Shown here: positions 7,916 to 38,463 of the stretch, one piece after another
How the letters are laid out: each line of letters opens with the position of its first letter
How positions within the stretch are numbered: position 1 is the first letter of the stretch
From: Adineta ricciae
Lineage: Eukaryota; Rotifera; Eurotatoria; Adinetida; Adinetidae
DNA length: 64,000 nt
NCBI GenBank assembly: GCA_905250025.1
Contig: CAJNOJ010000297.1
Location: forward strand, 58,377-122,376
Direction: 5' to 3'
Position numbers and translations under genes: made by a program
The notes under the pieces: model-generated
What the model saw: the letters and a program-made list of their open reading frames with translations, nothing else
Databases searched by the model: none
What the model was told of the DNA's origin: nothing

Positions 7916-8996
7916 TAATGGTCAAATGAATACCACTTCATTTTCTTCATAGCATCAATTTCATTTTTATTAATATCTAATTTCTCTCCACCATGTACGT
8001 AGAATTCAATTTCGTTTTCTAACTTTGTTGATATAATTGATTTATTTAACTTCACCCACTGATAACTGCTAGTCCAAACATCTAGCGTTAATGTTTGTCT
8101 GTCATGAAATTCTTTGAGACCTCGTTCGTACGACTTCGACCATCTTTCAACAATTTTGAGTGTTAAAATTTTAAATTTGGACAATGGCAGGCGTTCTCGA
8201 AATGTGTTTTCATCTTTGATGGCTCTGTTGTTTGACTCTAAAGCATTATTTGTACTTGGAGTTAAATGACGAATACCTTCGTACCAACCATTATGCGTGT
8301 TTAACCATTCATTTTCAAAATATTGAATGAATTCTGGTTGCTTTCTACTCCACTTTTTGACGAAAAGACCAGAAGCTTTCCTAAAAATCTTGTCACTTTG
8401 TGCCACTTGTAACATATCAATATCTTGCAGTAAATCTTCTTTGTCCATCTTGTCTACCATTGATTCAACCTTCTTCACCACTTTTCGCCGCATATGAGCC
8501 CAGCACATAACCATAAGTTTTTCTCCAAAAACTGATTGAAATCCATTACGAATTGCATCTGAACCATCAGCTATGAGAATATCCGGGTCAATTTTTTGTA
8601 AATCAAGTTTTGATACACCTTCTTACAGAGCACGAAAGATGAATGTAAAATCTGCAGTTTTTTCATTTGAACAAACGGCAATTCCAAGCCAATGAAATTG
8701 TCGATTAATATCAGTGGTGCCAACGATAAGAACTGGAAAGCCTTGCCACACTAATTTATAAGTAGCATCTGCATGGGTTTTCTTCGATCTTGAAGCAGTA
8801 CGTAAAAGTCTTTTAGCTGAAACAAAAAAAACGAAGTTTATTTTCACCATCATCATCGTCGTCATCTCCATTCACACAGTTATTGATATTATCATCATAA
8901 ACAATTTCATATGATACAACGAAACCAACATCGTCAGATTCTGGAATCGATCTGGTCGATTCCACGCACCACTGCTCAATTTCACCAAGACTTATC
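7916..8996 (-). pseudogene. Truncated, mutated MULE transposase copy
   Basis: Nearly identical to the middle and 3' part of the complete transposase at 9424-11265, but lacking both the N-terminal zinc module and the C-terminal SWIM finger region. It carries a nonsense change: CTG-CAA-GAA of the intact copy is CTG-TAA-GAA at about 8623. It also has one extra A in the poly-A tract near 8823 (eight instead of seven), which shifts the frame. The right edge coincides with the single N at 8997 and the left edge with an AAT microsatellite, so the truncation is partly an assembly edge. The CWAHMRRKV block and the Asp-containing ADGSDAIRN block are present. Confidence 0.8.
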
Positions 8997-8997
8997 N
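8997..8997. other. Single-N assembly joint
   Basis: An isolated N where the MULE remnant stops matching its full copy and unrelated sequence starts. Similar single Ns occur at 12099, 37692, 40334 and 50557; at 37692 the flanks are duplicates of each other, so I read these as unmerged contig joins. Confidence 0.6.
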
Positions 8998-9185
8998 TTA
9001 CCACAACGAGAGTTGGTTATACTCGAAAACTTTGGAATAGATGTTTCCGAACACCTAAACACGAGGGAATCTGCATGAATAAGGAAAACACAATCATACT
9101 ACGAAAAGATTTTAATCAGCTCTTGCACAATGAGAAAAGAAATATTTGCAAAAGAAATCGAATTGACTTTTGCAAAATTTAGTTT
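8998..9185 (-). pseudogene. Downstream part of a host coding region split by the MULE
   Basis: On the minus strand the frame of the exon at 11859-11783 continues past the target-site duplication into this stretch for about 20 codons with further Cys and Phe residues. A plausible 58-bp intron (GTGCAAG...TTCATGCAG) follows, and then another open stretch reaching the N at 8997. I do not recognise the family. It is annotated as broken because the 2.6-kb element separates it from its upstream exons. Confidence 0.35.
9177..9185. repeat. Left target-site duplication of the MULE (ATTTAGTTT)
   Basis: ATTTAGTTT directly before the element end GGGTCC; the same nine bases follow the other end at 11783-11791. 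A 9-bp duplication is the hallmark length for Mutator-type elements. Confidence 0.85.
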
Positions 9186-9415
9186 GGGTCCTATTTAATT
9201 GGTCAGTATTTTATTGTGAATGGTCAGTATTTTTCTCAGCATATGATCAGTATTTTTTGATCAGTAAATATATGGTTTTTGGTCAGTAAATAATGTGAAA
9301 TGTCAGTGATTAAATCAAAATATGATCAGTAAAAAAATTATTTTTGGTCAGTAGATAAATATTTCTTGATCAGTTATTTCTTTATTTTTATCAGTGAAAA
9401 ATGGTACAATTTCAA
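9186..9415. repeat. Left terminal inverted repeat with TGATCAGT array
   Basis: Contains about ten copies of (T/G)GTCAGTA or GATCAGTA spaced by AT-rich filler; mirrored by the right end. Confidence 0.8.
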
Positions 9416-9423
9416 ACAAAAAA

Positions 9424-11265
9424 CTATTGAATAAGCAATGCTTTTCCAGCTTTGGTGGGACGACCCCGACGTCGTTTTTCGCCAATCTTAATGTTTTTCG
9501 CAGCAGGCGGTGGTTTACAATAATTCATTCTGATTCCCAATCCAACAATATGTTTACACATAAACTTTTTGAAGAAAGCTGGACAATTGCATCGACCATC
9601 CATCCATTTTGATTCATCCAACGGTAATGTAACATGCCAGACATTGAACGCTTTAGCTTTATAATGGTCAAATGAATACCACTTCATTTTCTTCATAGCA
9701 TCAATTTCATTTTTATTAATATCTAATTTCTCTCCACCAGGTACGTAGAATTCAATTTCGTTTTCTAACTTTGTTGATGTAATTGATTTATTTAACTTCA
9801 CCCACTGATAACTGCTAGTCCAAACATCTAGCGTTAACGTTTGTCTGTCATGAAATTCTTTGAGACCTCGTTCGTACGACTTCGACCATCTTTCAACAAT
9901 TTCGAGTGTTAAAATTTTAAATCTGGACAATGGCAGGCGTTCTCGAAATGTGTTTTCATCTTTGATGACTCTGTTGTTTGACTCTAAAGCATTATTTGTA
10001 CTTGGAGTTAAATGACGAATACCTTCGTACCAACCATTATGCGTGTTTAACCACTCATTTTCAAAATACTGGATGAATTCTGGTTGCTTTTTACTCCATT
10101 TTTTGACGAAAAGACCAGAAGCTTTCCTAAAAATCTTGTCACTTTGTGCCAGTTGTAACATATCAATATCTTGCAGTAAATCTTCTTTGTCCATCTTGTC
10201 TACCATTGATTCAACCTTCTTCACCACTTTTCGCCGCATATGAGCCCAGCACATAACTATTGGTTTTTCTCCAAAAACTGATTGAAATCCATTACGAATT
10301 GCATCTGAGCCATCAGCTATGAGAATATCCGGATCAATTTTTTGTAAATCAAGTTTTGATACACCTTCTTGCAGAGCACGAAAGATGAATGTAAAATCTG
10401 CAGTTTTTTCATTTGAACAAACGGCAACCCCAAACCAATGAAATTGTCGATTCATATCAGTGGTGCCAACGATAAGAACTGGAAAGCCTTGCCACACCAA
10501 TTTATAAGTAGCATCTGCATGGATTTTCTTTGATCTTGAAGCAGTACGTAAAAGTCTTTTAGTTGAAACAAAAAAACGAAATTTATTTTCACCATCATCA
10601 TCGTCGTCATCTCCATTCACATAATTATTGATATTATCATCATAAACAATTTCATATGATACAACGAAACCAACATCGTCAGATTCTGGAATCGATCTGG
10701 TCGATTCCACGCACCACTGCTCAATTTCACCAAGACTTATCCCTGTTGGACCAAATCGTTTCATTCTTAATGCTCTTAAGTAATTGTTCAATTGATTGAT
10801 AGTTGGTGCCACTATACCACGTTCATGTAATGTTTCAAGTATAGCTTTAGGTTTTAAATTCAAATCATGCAATTCTTTGATAACCACTTTCACGTCATCC
10901 GGTATTTTTGTCCATTTTGCTTGCGTAGGATTATGAGTATGATCAGATGTACTACGGAATAAAGTAACTTCTTCACTAGCAGCATTAAATAATAAATAAA
11001 CACTGGCGTCATATTGTTTTCCACGACGCCTAACCTGATTGCACCTAAAAACCTTCTTTCTTCCCTCTGACGTGGTATTCGTATAATGTTGACTCCATTG
11101 ATTTTCCTTTTTCACTGCCTGTTCAGCTTCATCGCCGTTTTTAAACACCATTACTTTTATCCATTTGTGTCGTCTGCTTTTTTCTTTTTTCTTGCGTTCA
11201 GCTTGAAAACTAGTATCCATATTTTCGTCATCAGAAACGTACAGTGGCAATTCATTGAATTCCAT
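9424..11265 (-). CDS. MULE transposase
   Basis: An uninterrupted ORF of 613 aa from ATG at 11265 (MEFNELPLY...). The frame is open a little further upstream without another ATG, across a possible 5' intron. Order of domains: acidic/basic N-terminus; a WRKY/GCM- or FLYWCH-type DNA-binding zinc module (KKVFRCNQVRRRGKQYDASV ending in the SDHTHN histidine pair, about residues 70-120); the MULE catalytic core with first Asp in HADATYK (about 245), second Asp in ILIADGSDAIRN (about 315) and the CWAHM C/H motif; a late Glu-containing helix around TNNALESNN; and a C-terminal SWIM zinc finger CNCPAFFKKFMCKH. All catalytic landmarks are present. It cuts and pastes the element in the nucleus. Confidence 0.93.
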   Translation of the reverse strand: MEFNELPLYVSDDENMDTSFQAERKKKEKSRRHKWIKVMVFKNGDEAEQAVKKENQWSQHYTNTTSEGRKKVFRCNQVRRRGKQYDASVYLLFNAASEEVTLFRSTSDHTHNPTQAKWTKIPDDVKVVIKELHDLNLKPKAILETLHERGIVAPTINQLNNYLRALRMKRFGPTGISLGEIEQWCVESTRSIPESDDVGFVVSYEIVYDDNINNYVNGDDDDDDGENKFRFFVSTKRLLRTASRSKKIHADATYKLVWQGFPVLIVGTTDMNRQFHWFGVAVCSNEKTADFTFIFRALQEGVSKLDLQKIDPDILIADGSDAIRNGFQSVFGEKPIVMCWAHMRRKVVKKVESMVDKMDKEDLLQDIDMLQLAQSDKIFRKASGLFVKKWSKKQPEFIQYFENEWLNTHNGWYEGIRHLTPSTNNALESNNRVIKDENTFRERLPLSRFKILTLEIVERWSKSYERGLKEFHDRQTLTLDVWTSSYQWVKLNKSITSTKLENEIEFYVPGGEKLDINKNEIDAMKKMKWYSFDHYKAKAFNVWHVTLPLDESKWMDGRCNCPAFFKKFMCKHIVGLGIRMNYCKPPPAAKNIKIGEKRRRGRPTKAGKALLIQ

Positions 11266-11534
11266 CGCTGTTCGCAAATCAAAACCGAATGGCTATGAAT
11301 TGAAATTCTATTTAGTTTGATTCGTAAGATGAAGCACTTACATAGGGTTCATCAGAAAAGCAATCGAGGGAACTTCGTCCTTTGTTAAGTCGAAATAGTT
11401 ATCGTTGTATATCATATATCTATTCATTGTTAGAAGATATCACATAGATGTTATGGTTTTCAAAAAGCCGGTCAGAAAGAAATAAAGCCGATAAGTAGGT
11501 CATTTTATATATGTGATAATCGAGGTGCTACAGA

Positions 11535-11782
11535 ACGATGAAAACTGATAAAAATGGGATGATTCACCGATCAGACACAATTTACTACTGATATTTCACT
11601 TAAATTACTGATAAACTCATTAACTCACTGATAAAATGATAAAACTACTGATCAAATTCAATACTCACTGATCATCGATTATTTTACTGACATTTGAACT
11701 TTTTTACTGATTATTTACAATAAATACTGATCAAATTTTACTGACCATTCACAATAAAATACTGACCATTTAATTTGTACCC
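11535..11782. repeat. Right terminal inverted repeat with ACTGATCA array
   Basis: Repeated ACTGATAAA / ACTGATCA / ACTGACCA units in the orientation opposite to the left end; outermost bases GTACCC. Confidence 0.8.
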
Positions 11783-11791
11783 ATTTAGTTT
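11783..11791. repeat. Right target-site duplication of the MULE (ATTTAGTTT)
   Basis: Exact copy of 9177-9185, directly outside the right element end. Confidence 0.85.
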
Positions 11792-12098
11792 CTGCATAGA
11801 TTCCACAATGACTAATAAAAACCCTATCGACTACAACTGAAGTCACACAGTTTCGTCGTCTGAACAATTCATTCAATAAAGATTCCGATGATGACATACA
11901 CCAACTTACTCGAGAGATAAATCAGCATTTTCTGTACTTCTTTCACGTGTCGAACAGTCCTGACGTGAGCAAATACTTTTGTTCTTATAGAGTTGAACAG
12001 GATTTTTAATGAAGCGCAATACATTGTTATCAACAGATCCATATATGTTATATTGATTGGACTGTTGATGAGCGAGAATACTATGACTGGTAAGCCAA
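11783..12098 (-). pseudogene. Host exons upstream of the MULE insertion
   Basis: On the minus strand a frame is open from the N at 12099 to 11910 (QSNQYNIYGSVDNNVLRF..., Cys-containing CSRQDCSTRERS). A 50-bp GTAAGT...TTCAG intron (11909-11860) follows, then an exon from 11859 reading RRNCVTSVVVDRVFISHCGI up to the MULE target site. Splice phase fits, which supports real exons. The element lies inside the second exon. Family not recognised; the Cys spacing suggests a secreted or membrane ectodomain. The 5' end is cut by the assembly joint at 12099. Confidence 0.45.
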
Positions 12099-12099
12099 N
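12099..12099. other. Single-N assembly joint truncating the LRR gene
   Basis: The LRR reading frame on the minus strand stops making sense immediately after this N, so the 3.1-kb block 8998-12098 may not truly adjoin the LRR gene. Confidence 0.55.
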
Positions 12100-13040
12100 T
12101 CATTATGAATTGTTAAACTTTCAAGTGAATGTAATTGATTATTTGATAATACTAAACCATGTAAATGCATACCAAGAAATGCATCAGCTGAAATATGTTT
12201 TATTCGATTCTTTGATAAACCAATATCAAAAACATGTGTTAAATTTGTAAAAATATTTGATTTAATTTCTTCAATTAAATTATCATCTAAATTAATATAA
12301 ATTATGTTTGTGAATTGAACTAAAGATGGTATATCAACTAATTGATTTGATGATAAATCTAATTCAGTTACAAATTGAGAAACGAGGCTTTCAATAAGAG
12401 GATTAATATTTGTTAGAGAACAATTTTGTAAATCAATTTGTTTCCAGTTTAAAGAAGGTGATTCATTTGAAATAAATTGCATTTCTTTTGAATTGAGAAT
12501 TCTAATTTTATCAATATTTGTTTGATTAAATGCTTTTAAATTGAAATTATATGGAAGATTATGAATAGTATTATATTGGATATTATCAATACGAAATTCT
12601 TCACATTTCAATCCACTAAAAGCATTATCAGTAAGTTGAAAATTTCTTGGTGATTGAAATTTAATATGAATTGATGTATTTAGAAAATATTCCCATGGAT
12701 AAAAGATATCTTCTGCTATTTCATCAATTCCATTGGTAAAAGTGAATTCTAATTTTGGAGGTGAAGGAAATGTTAAGGAAAAGTTTGTAAATATAAAAGA
12801 TGTTAAACGTGTGAAATTAATAAAATTAAATGAATATTGTTGATATTTAGGTGGCGAATATGTTGACCAATCGATAAAACTGTCATTACTAGGAGAATTT
12901 TCAATACAAGTCACTGGAGGATGAAAATCTTCGCAATAACATGTAATAAATGAATTATTAAGACATATACTTTGTGATTTTATTAAATTTTTAATTGAAA
13001 TCAGATAAATAATATAGAAAATATTTTTTAATCGAACCAT
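12100..13040 (-). CDS. Leucine-rich-repeat secreted/surface protein, 3' end missing
   Basis: ORF from ATG 13040, about 313 codons to the N at 12099. Residues about 5-22 form a signal peptide, followed by a Cys cluster (SICLNNSFITCYCEDFHPPV) as an LRR N-cap, many N-glycosylation sites (NNS, NFT, NFS, NTS, NLT) and at least four typical LRRs near the end: VTELDLSSNQLVDIPSL, IIYINLDDNLIEEIKSNIF, VFDIGLSKNRIKHISADAF and HGLVLSNNQLHSLESL. The C-terminal cap and membrane anchor are absent because the sequence is cut. The orphan C-terminus at 18480-19034 (LRR C-cap-like, mucin stalk, TM) would fit this kind of protein. Extracellular recognition is likely; the ligand is unknown. Confidence 0.75.
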
Positions 13041-36780: not shown

Positions 36781-37479
36781 TATCAGTATAGAAAAGAATA
36801 TGTATTTGAATACACGTTTAGACTTCTACATGAGGATAACGATACTCATTTTACGTGATTTTGAAGGAAAATAATTCGTCGTCTCACTTGCTTCCGATAA
36901 TCTCATTCAATTTCAAACTAATTTGGATTTTATTTCTTTTTCTATTTCTATTTGAGATTTCATTTACGATAAAAACATACTGAATGAGATACTGATCTGA
37001 CAGATATTGATGATCAATGACCTTCAACTGATTTAAAAGATTTGGTTTGAAGAACAGATATTGAATAATCGTTGATAATATCTTTCAATATGTATGATGA
37101 TTTCCATCCAGCTATTCTGTAACTGACAGAGTATATTTTAGTTGAGCGTCTTTACATAAAGCAAACTGCTTTGATATTTAAAAAGACAGAGAATCAGTGG
37201 TTATTTGGAACGTAACTTAGACAAAGCTACCAAAAGGAAACGCATTTTTAGAGAATTCGAAACGCATCTCAAATCTGTTAAGCCGCGTCTAAACGTATTT
37301 CAGTTACATTTTTCAACGCAGCCAAGTGCTACTTTCTACAAAGATGCGTCCAATTGCGTTTAAAACCAGTTGTAGTTGCGTTTGGATACGGTTTAAACTT
37401 CCATCGCGTCTGGTTGCGTTTTTCTTTTTGAGTTAAGACCGTGTGTAGACGCGATTCTGTTAACAGACGCATCTGAATG

Positions 37480-37904
37480 CAGCTAAAAAGTCTTTTGGCT
37501 GCGTCTGAACGCGGTCATACACAAAATTGCGTCAAAGTGCAAGAAAAAATTATTTTGTTTTGCATTCAGACGCAGTTATCTTGAGATACGCGTTTGAACG
37601 CGATAAAATTGATTTTAAACCGCGTCTACGTGCGATTTGCGAAGTAAATTGCGTCGGAACGCGTTTATCCTGCGTCTGGCGTTTACATGGGNCAGCTAAA
37701 AAATCTTTTGGCTGCGTCTGAACGCGGTCATACACAAAATTGCGTCAAAGTGCAAGAAAAAATTATTTTGTTTTGCATTCAGACGCAGTTATCTTGAGAT
37801 ACGCGTTTGAACGCGATAAAATTGATTTTAAACCGCGTCTACGTGCGATTTGCGAAGTAAATTGCGTCGGAACGCGTTTATCCTGCGTCTGGCGTTTACA
37901 TGGG
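37480..37904 (+). repeat. 212-bp direct duplication around a single N
   Basis: 37480-37691 and 37693-37904 are the same sequence except for one visible G/A change near the start. A perfect head-to-tail copy meeting exactly at an N is best explained by unmerged contig ends or two haplotypes. Confidence 0.85.
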
Positions 37905-38463
37905 AAGCCATTTCATAGTGAAGATATTTTACTTCTTATTTCATCTACATCGATAATTAATCGTAAAAGAAGAACAACAAAATATGTTGGCATTACACAT
38001 ATTTCTTATACAAATTTAGCATCTGATGATACTCACGAAACATTCACTTTGATAGTTCATTTTAATATTGAAGATCGAATCAAAACTTCACGTCTCATAT
38101 ATACAATTATTTGTCAAAGGATTTATTCACAAGATTTCCCTATTTTTCTCGGATATTTTGAGTCAATGACAACAACTAAAATAATTCTATCTAATGATGA
38201 TAGATCTATTTTTTGTTTTATGACAAGATTTTGGTGAAGTGACAGCAAAATTATATTATTACTATCATATAATAAATATGAAAATCGAATAATTATCTTA
38301 ACTGATGGGAAATCGTGTACATTGAAAGAAACAGCATCATTAGTATCAAGTATTTTAGATCCAGATGAAAAATGGTACATCTTGCGGGCAACAACTCATC
38401 GTTACGACCTCAAGATGTTAAATATGAATGTTTTTATGAACTATTATTATTCATATGAATAGT
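37905..38463 (+). pseudogene. Unrecognised gene fragment truncated by the foldback element
   Basis: From the element edge the frame reads PFHSEDILLLISSTSIINRK, GITHISYTNLASDD, IEDRIKTSRLIYTIICQRIY and FMTRFW. A TGA at 38235 follows, and in the same frame SDSKIILLLSYNKYENRIII and LDPDEKWYILRATTHRYDLK to a stop at about 38463. The in-frame TGA and the lack of a start mark it as a relic. Codon use is host-like. Family unknown. Confidence 0.45.

Follow-up and report, generated by a model that had tools for sequence, protein, structure and literature searches.

The window analysed here, a 64,000-nucleotide stretch of the bdelloid rotifer Adineta ricciae (contig CAJNOJ010000297.1, positions 58,377 to 122,376), contains a Mutator-like element (MULE) whose two ends are built of arrays of the same short unit, TGRTCAGTA, spaced at about 20 bp before the transposase gene and about 22 bp after it. 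In a related copy on contig C657, the unit is replaced in both arrays by TGAGCAATA; its downstream positions are unchanged, and its upstream steps are still 20 bp. We tentatively propose a two-pitch ruler, an idea that we rate somewhat below an even chance. The identity of each end would be written in the spacing of its sites rather than in their sequence, and as the DNA-binding finger of the transposase diverges, a new site sequence could take over both arrays while the ruler is maintained. Geometry would then outlive specificity.

Termini and unit arrays of the element

The element and its ends comprise the following features.

9186..11782, minus strand (gene strand): whole Mutator-like element, 2597 bp
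9177..9185, unstranded: target site duplication, left copy, ATTTAGTTT, from sequence
11783..11791, unstranded: target site duplication, right copy, ATTTAGTTT, from sequence
9186..9230, plus strand: outer terminal inverted repeat (TIR), 3' end (downstream of the gene), 40/45 identical to the other end
11738..11782, minus strand: outer TIR, 5' end (upstream of the gene), 40/45 identical to the other end
9200..9396, plus strand: 3'-end array of nine TGRTCAGTA units at ≤2 mismatches; from the second unit on, steps mostly of 21-23 bp, alongside one of 14 bp and one of double length
11543..11768, minus strand: 5'-end array of 12 TGRTCAGTA units at ≤2 mismatches; spacing mostly 20 bp after the third unit

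An initial annotation, made from the letters alone, had reported a perfect 9-bp target duplication and matching outer ends. The duplication is confirmed on both flanks, and a nine-base match at one given placement would arise by chance at about 1e-5 under the base composition of the window. Its length falls within the 8-10 bp range given for the Mutator superfamily (PMC5225508; here and below, citations refer to excerpts of the papers named). The two termini are GGGTCC and GTACCC. The reported match of the ends holds over the outer 45 bp (40/45 in register) but not further in, where positions 46-210 agree at only 52/165, near background. The true inverted repeat is therefore short, and beyond 45 bp only the units are common to both ends.

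At ≤1 mismatch, the unit occurs eight times in the left-end 220 bp and seven times in the right-end 220 bp, never on the opposite strand, against means of 0.19 and 0.27 (maxima 4 and 3) in dinucleotide shuffles (n = 2000). Nowhere else in the window do three such units lie within 50 bp of one another. The ends are of the foldback type, that is, TIRs made of internal repeats. The mirror orientation described in the annotation is correct in that both arrays point inward, but their spacing is not a mirror image.

Spacing across copies and the switch of unit

These ends were compared with those of related copies, named here by contig. The near relatives are C654, with an open frame and 70% amino acid identity, and C674, whose frame is broken and whose longest open piece shows 78%; C657 (48%), C442 and C635 are more distant (42-48%). 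In all 23 ends measured, the step from the first unit to the second is 21 bp. Downstream, units stand at positions 15, 36, 59, 73 and 95 in the window element, C674, C654 and C657 (at ≤2 mismatches, the one at 73 in C657 being the weakest). Upstream, the window element, C674 and C654 carry them at 15, 36, 50, 70-71, 90-91, 109-110, 129-130, 149-150 and 169-170.

After the second unit, the median spacing per end was 20 bp in six of seven upstream ends and 21 bp in the other (from two gaps), versus 22 bp in all seven downstream ends (rank test, p 6e-4, counting related ends as independent). Before the medians were taken, each multiple step was reduced to its single-step equivalent, and gaps more than 2.5 bp off 21 were dropped, which left 90 of 104 gaps (46/51 upstream and 44/53 downstream). 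Autocorrelation agrees with the upstream pitch in 7/7 ends, and this pitch of about 20 bp is firm; the gene-less copies described below have upstream spacings of 18-21 bp. The downstream pitch of about 22 bp is mixed in the more distant copies: autocorrelation agrees in only four of seven ends (one of them tied with 14), with peaks at 21 in C442 and at 20 in C635 and C745.

The first unit scan gave no cluster in L057, L058, L060, L062, L063, L066 and L067; L062 uses another unit, the right end of L063 shows units once ≤2 mismatches are allowed, and L060 holds only a pair of them. Unit counts leave out L057, L058, L066, L067 and L074 (C114), as well as the upstream end of C442, which runs off its contig, and the downstream end of C269, which was not found. 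The left boundary of C745 was set by eye with one-base uncertainty, and four ends were cut one base off; inter-unit distances are unaffected.

At the downstream end of C657, 18/45 spacer positions and 30/45 unit positions are identical to those of the window element. C657 thus keeps the lengths but loses the spacer sequence, which argues that the spacing itself is constrained. With a unit mask derived from the window alone, C674 and C654 are identical at 124/135 unit versus 211/288 other positions (p 5e-6), an effect that fades as the mask slides and is gone at 5 bases. The window element, C674 and C654 all agree at 150/183 unit versus 145/240 spacer positions, under a three-copy unit definition that favours conserved sites. 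Gap columns number 20 in spacers versus 0 in units, with a mask partly defined by conservation.

Transposase and dispersed copies

The gene between the two arrays and its motifs are placed as follows.

9424..11265, minus strand: transposase gene, 613 amino acids plus stop; open frame, Pfam MULE, D251, D318 and E428 with C339/H342 between
10933..11043, minus strand: N-terminal WRKY-GCM1/FLYWCH-like putative finger, C75-x9-Y85-x23-H109-x-H111, Tyr85 standing where 5/5 relatives have Cys; fold from the segment of a relative
9550..9591, minus strand: SWIM zinc motif CNCPAFFKKFMCKH of the C-terminal part, its ligands retained; Pfam SWIM score slightly below the cut-off
9457..9471, minus strand: AT-hook-like RRGRP at the C terminus, by motif; Pfam AT_hook under its cut-off in two relatives only

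The uninterrupted frame and the MULE identity given in the initial annotation both stand. The MULE transposase domain (PF10551) scores 39.4 bits against a cut-off of 27.6 (E 8e-10), and the closest solved structure is ISCth4 ('Mutator family transposase'), the sole sequence match among solved structures (E 1e-4). A full-length model has a poor predicted fold, too weak to use on its own; at E ≤0.001 it matches the chains of ISCth4 alone (best E 9e-6). ISCth4 presumably belongs to the IS256 family; membership of the present enzyme in that family is not supported by the NCBIfam IS256 model (44.5 against a cut-off of 150). D251, D318, C339 and H342 are invariant across five aligned proteins, and E428 is found in those aligned relatives that extend that far. 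We take D251, D318 and E428 (DDE) to be the catalytic residues, with C339/H342 between them, roles that are assigned by family motif. The ratios of nonsynonymous to synonymous substitution (0.18 and 0.13) indicate that the transposase is under constraint.

The zinc motifs mentioned in the annotation were recovered in part: the C-terminal SWIM ligands are present along with the DDE residues, but the N-terminal finger lacks one expected ligand. The SWIM motif scores 19.0 bits in this copy against a cut-off of 19.6, which three relatives pass. Pfam FLYWCH gives weak, under-cut-off matches in 5/5 relatives and none in the window copy, where the likely zinc-ligand Cys of those five is Tyr85. The N-terminal segment of a relative was modelled with a predicted local distance difference test score (pLDDT) of 80, and its fold lists are topped by AFT2-DNA and WRKY domains with middling scores. 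A search of solved structures with the finger profile returned only three weak matches, all coiled-coil fusions (best E 0.42). The predicted WRKY-GCM1/FLYWCH-like fold class is supported but not settled. The window copy has probably lost part of the DNA-binding finger, and Tyr at position 85 may impair its own enzyme; the description of the element as intact is doubtful.

Searches of the 130-Mb assembly with the ends and the transposase, as the annotation had proposed, located at least 14 places matching the left end, at least 17 matching the right end and at least 25 matching the protein. An exact search for three units separated by 10-14 bp gave nine hits on six contigs, every one in a copy of the element's group, and none for the reversed pattern. 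Two-ended gene-less copies, 460-534 bp long, are found on C658, C227 and C559, and partial ones on C123, C360 and C114. For all eight tested ends of gene-less copies (two from one-ended copies), the best match is the window element's corresponding end, and these copies were probably moved by an enzyme of this sublineage. Perfect 9-bp flanking duplications, all different, are present in 7/9 two-ended copies; in C745 the 9-bp match is displaced by one base, and C657 has no duplication. The seven perfect duplications contain 9.5% G+C versus 32% in the window, hinting, from few sites, at an A+T preference at target sites. Other MULE lineages occupy 42 places in the genome; the array comparison covers the present group. 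No relatives were found in viral contigs (no pattern match in one search; 160 pattern stretches with 0 relatives in another) or in prokaryote genomes (54 pattern stretches, 0 relatives).

Segmental duplication was rejected as the source of the copies: the flanks of the window element match their own locus only, and those of other copies read differently. Neither of the two outcomes that the annotation had named as fatal to its reading, flanks shared by all copies and ends that recur nowhere else, was observed. The only flanks alike, by eye, are those of two solo end fragments on C324 (L057:2320-2400 and L058:2300-2380), about 9 kb apart, which are probably one insertion duplicated later.

That the window insertion is recent, as first claimed, is unproven. 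The perfect duplication is its sole support, no empty allele of the insertion was found in the assembly, and the nearest relative with an open frame stands at a synonymous divergence of about 1. The C227 copy has an unoccupied paralogue (C227:99457-100002, 88%), in which a 23-bp gap covers the target, so that the exact empty site is not shown. The C658 gene-less copy (L053) lies within another dispersed repeat, and its flanks hence give no empty-site answer; joined, they returned 127 matches, nearly all partial and on many contigs (40 of 150 candidates scored).

Beside the element, the window holds one further piece of the family.

7923..8996, minus strand: part of the interior of a second copy, matching element positions 484-1556 at 97.2% identity, frame broken, stopping at a single N (8997)

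Single Ns at 8997, 12099, 37692, 40334 and 50557 resemble assembly joins. Those at 8997 and 12099 bracket the piece that carries the element, and a gene-like frame at 12081-13040 crosses the latter; a 213-bp unit at 37479-37908 stands in two tandem copies (98% matching) with a single N inside. Elsewhere, a 576-amino-acid frame adjoins the C635 relative (L064:180-1910) and appears to resemble a piggyBac-type transposase. The interior of the C227 gene-less copy (L054:2479-2514) contains exact tandem TGTGGG, and C114 (L074, C114:270100-270800) has a degenerate version of such a run. Six places in the genome hold five exact copies in tandem; the C227 copy is among them, and another lies 42 bp short of the end of contig C261. 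TGTGGG serves in PMC7943196 as the bdelloid telomere hexamer. Together with gene content and base composition, these repeats make a bdelloid host likely.

Proposed mechanism and comparison with known systems

The explanation that we consider probable as a whole is that the element is a class II cut-and-paste transposon of the Mutator superfamily, of FLYWCH-plus-SWIM type and low copy number, in which finger-read unit arrays at two pitches order a synaptic complex. A DDE transposase related to IS256 would recognise the ends through the arrays of 8-9-bp units, each unit being read by the N-terminal WRKY-GCM1/FLYWCH-like finger, and the C-terminal AT-hook-like motif may help in the AT-rich spacers. 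Since the units lie about two helical turns apart, at each end several subunits could bind along a single face of the DNA. The upstream pitch of about 20 bp and the downstream pitch of about 22 bp would make the ends unequal, mark them as two and order the complex. The ends would then be cut and rejoined into a 9-bp staggered, A+T-rich target, and the short gene-less copies, which carry these ends too, would be moved by this sublineage's enzyme.

The arrays could instead be by-products of slippage, a 20-22-bp tandem repeat copied outward whose even spacing reflects growth and not use. Growth by whole-unit duplication does occur, as C360 carries a run of nearly identical 21-bp units (L059:2612-2760) and C227 carries three. 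Yet across copies whose synonymous divergence is near 1 and beyond, the spacers differ but the unit positions persist, and C657 keeps its downstream positions at the low spacer identity noted above. The stronger conservation of units and the confinement of gap columns to spacers (under that partly conservation-defined mask) also argue against slippage, which we regard as unlikely. Less probable still is that the units serve the host or a promoter rather than transposition, as host-factor sites that drive the gene from the upstream end. The upstream array does lie about 280-500 bp ahead of the start codon, and Mutator TIRs are said to contain promoters plus transposase sites (PMC3310237), but arrays are also found at the downstream end and in gene-less copies, and the unit changed together in both ends of C657.

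A further question is whether the window element is fully autonomous and active, Tyr85 being harmless or an assembly error. Its open frame, its retained DDE and SWIM residues and its perfect target duplication speak for this; the Cys of all five relatives at the place of Tyr85, and their weak FLYWCH matches where the window copy has none, speak against it. The closest case in the literature, Tm1-A, has a FLYWCH ligand missing, and its authors call the family inactive (PMC3169594). Full autonomy seems unlikely, and within the finger-and-array explanation this copy's enzyme would be impaired.

To our knowledge, little is understood of how the MULE enzymes of eukaryotes recognise their two ends and distinguish between them. 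In the natural series of ends described here the geometry stays fixed while the site sequence switches, so that one can test directly whether end identity lies in spacing or in sequence; the series also offers a matched finger-and-site pair for specificity work. It further provides a case of a putative FLYWCH/SWIM MULE, accompanied by gene-less relatives, in a bdelloid rotifer genome. The end-specific pitch and the unit switch look new; neither was found in the excerpts of open-access MULE papers. We found no description of a bdelloid or rotifer MULE or Phantom element, as judged by titles and abstract starts, and the words Mutator, MuDR, MULE and Phantom are absent from the main text of a bdelloid transposon survey (PMC7943196).

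Repeat-array ends as such, which the initial annotation called unusual, are known from the Muta families of Aedes and from nematode Tm1 (PMC5225508, PMC3169594). Tm1, a Mutator/Foldback element of root-knot nematodes, resembles the present element in its 9-bp duplications, its copies like miniature inverted-repeat transposable elements, and its TIRs of a variable number of short repeats of 13-15 bp with the core TCAGTA, whose consensus CGATTCAGTATCCGC shares TCAGTA with the present unit (PMC3169594). The end motifs are also alike (CCTACCC in Tm1, GTACCC here), as are the FLYWCH-plus-MULE enzyme (its FLYWCH part putative here) with one finger ligand missing, the single coding element in the isolates examined, and hosts without sex, as inferred for the present host (PMC3169594). 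Unlike the present element, Tm1 has tandem units of about 14 bp without long spacers, asymmetric end motifs and a gene of seven exons for 496 amino acids, and the excerpt describes no SWIM, AT-hook or end-specific pitch (PMC3169594).

Subterminal tandem repeats occur in 10 of 12 long-TIR MULE families of Aedes (PMC5225508). The Muta families of Aedes aegypti, Muta1 among them, belong to the Phantom group and share with the present element 8-9-bp duplications, TIR arrays of subterminal repeats, a DDE enzyme and, in 13/14 families, an N-terminal FLYWCH finger, to which the putative finger here would correspond (PMC5225508, PMC6446971). Muta1, which is active in yeast, differs in its nine 12-bp units with 3-4-bp linkers (a step of about 15-16 bp) and its 504 amino acids in two exons (PMC5225508, PMC6446971). 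SWIM, present here, is reported among these families only for Muta6 in the same excerpts, and a table in PMC6446971 gives Phantom elements none, FLYWCH or SWIM, with both in a flatworm subgroup of group 16.

ISCth4 (PDB 6xgx, 6xg8) matches the catalytic part in sequence and fold and differs in being prokaryotic. The mode of working proposed here resembles that of the Hermes (hAT) transpososome, in which the many zinc fingers of an oligomer read subterminal repeats and the ends are bound differently, with many fingers engaged at one end and none at the other (PMC10368747). Hermes belongs to another superfamily and uses a BED finger and short AAGT sites, and the comparison extends to working mode only (PMC10368747).
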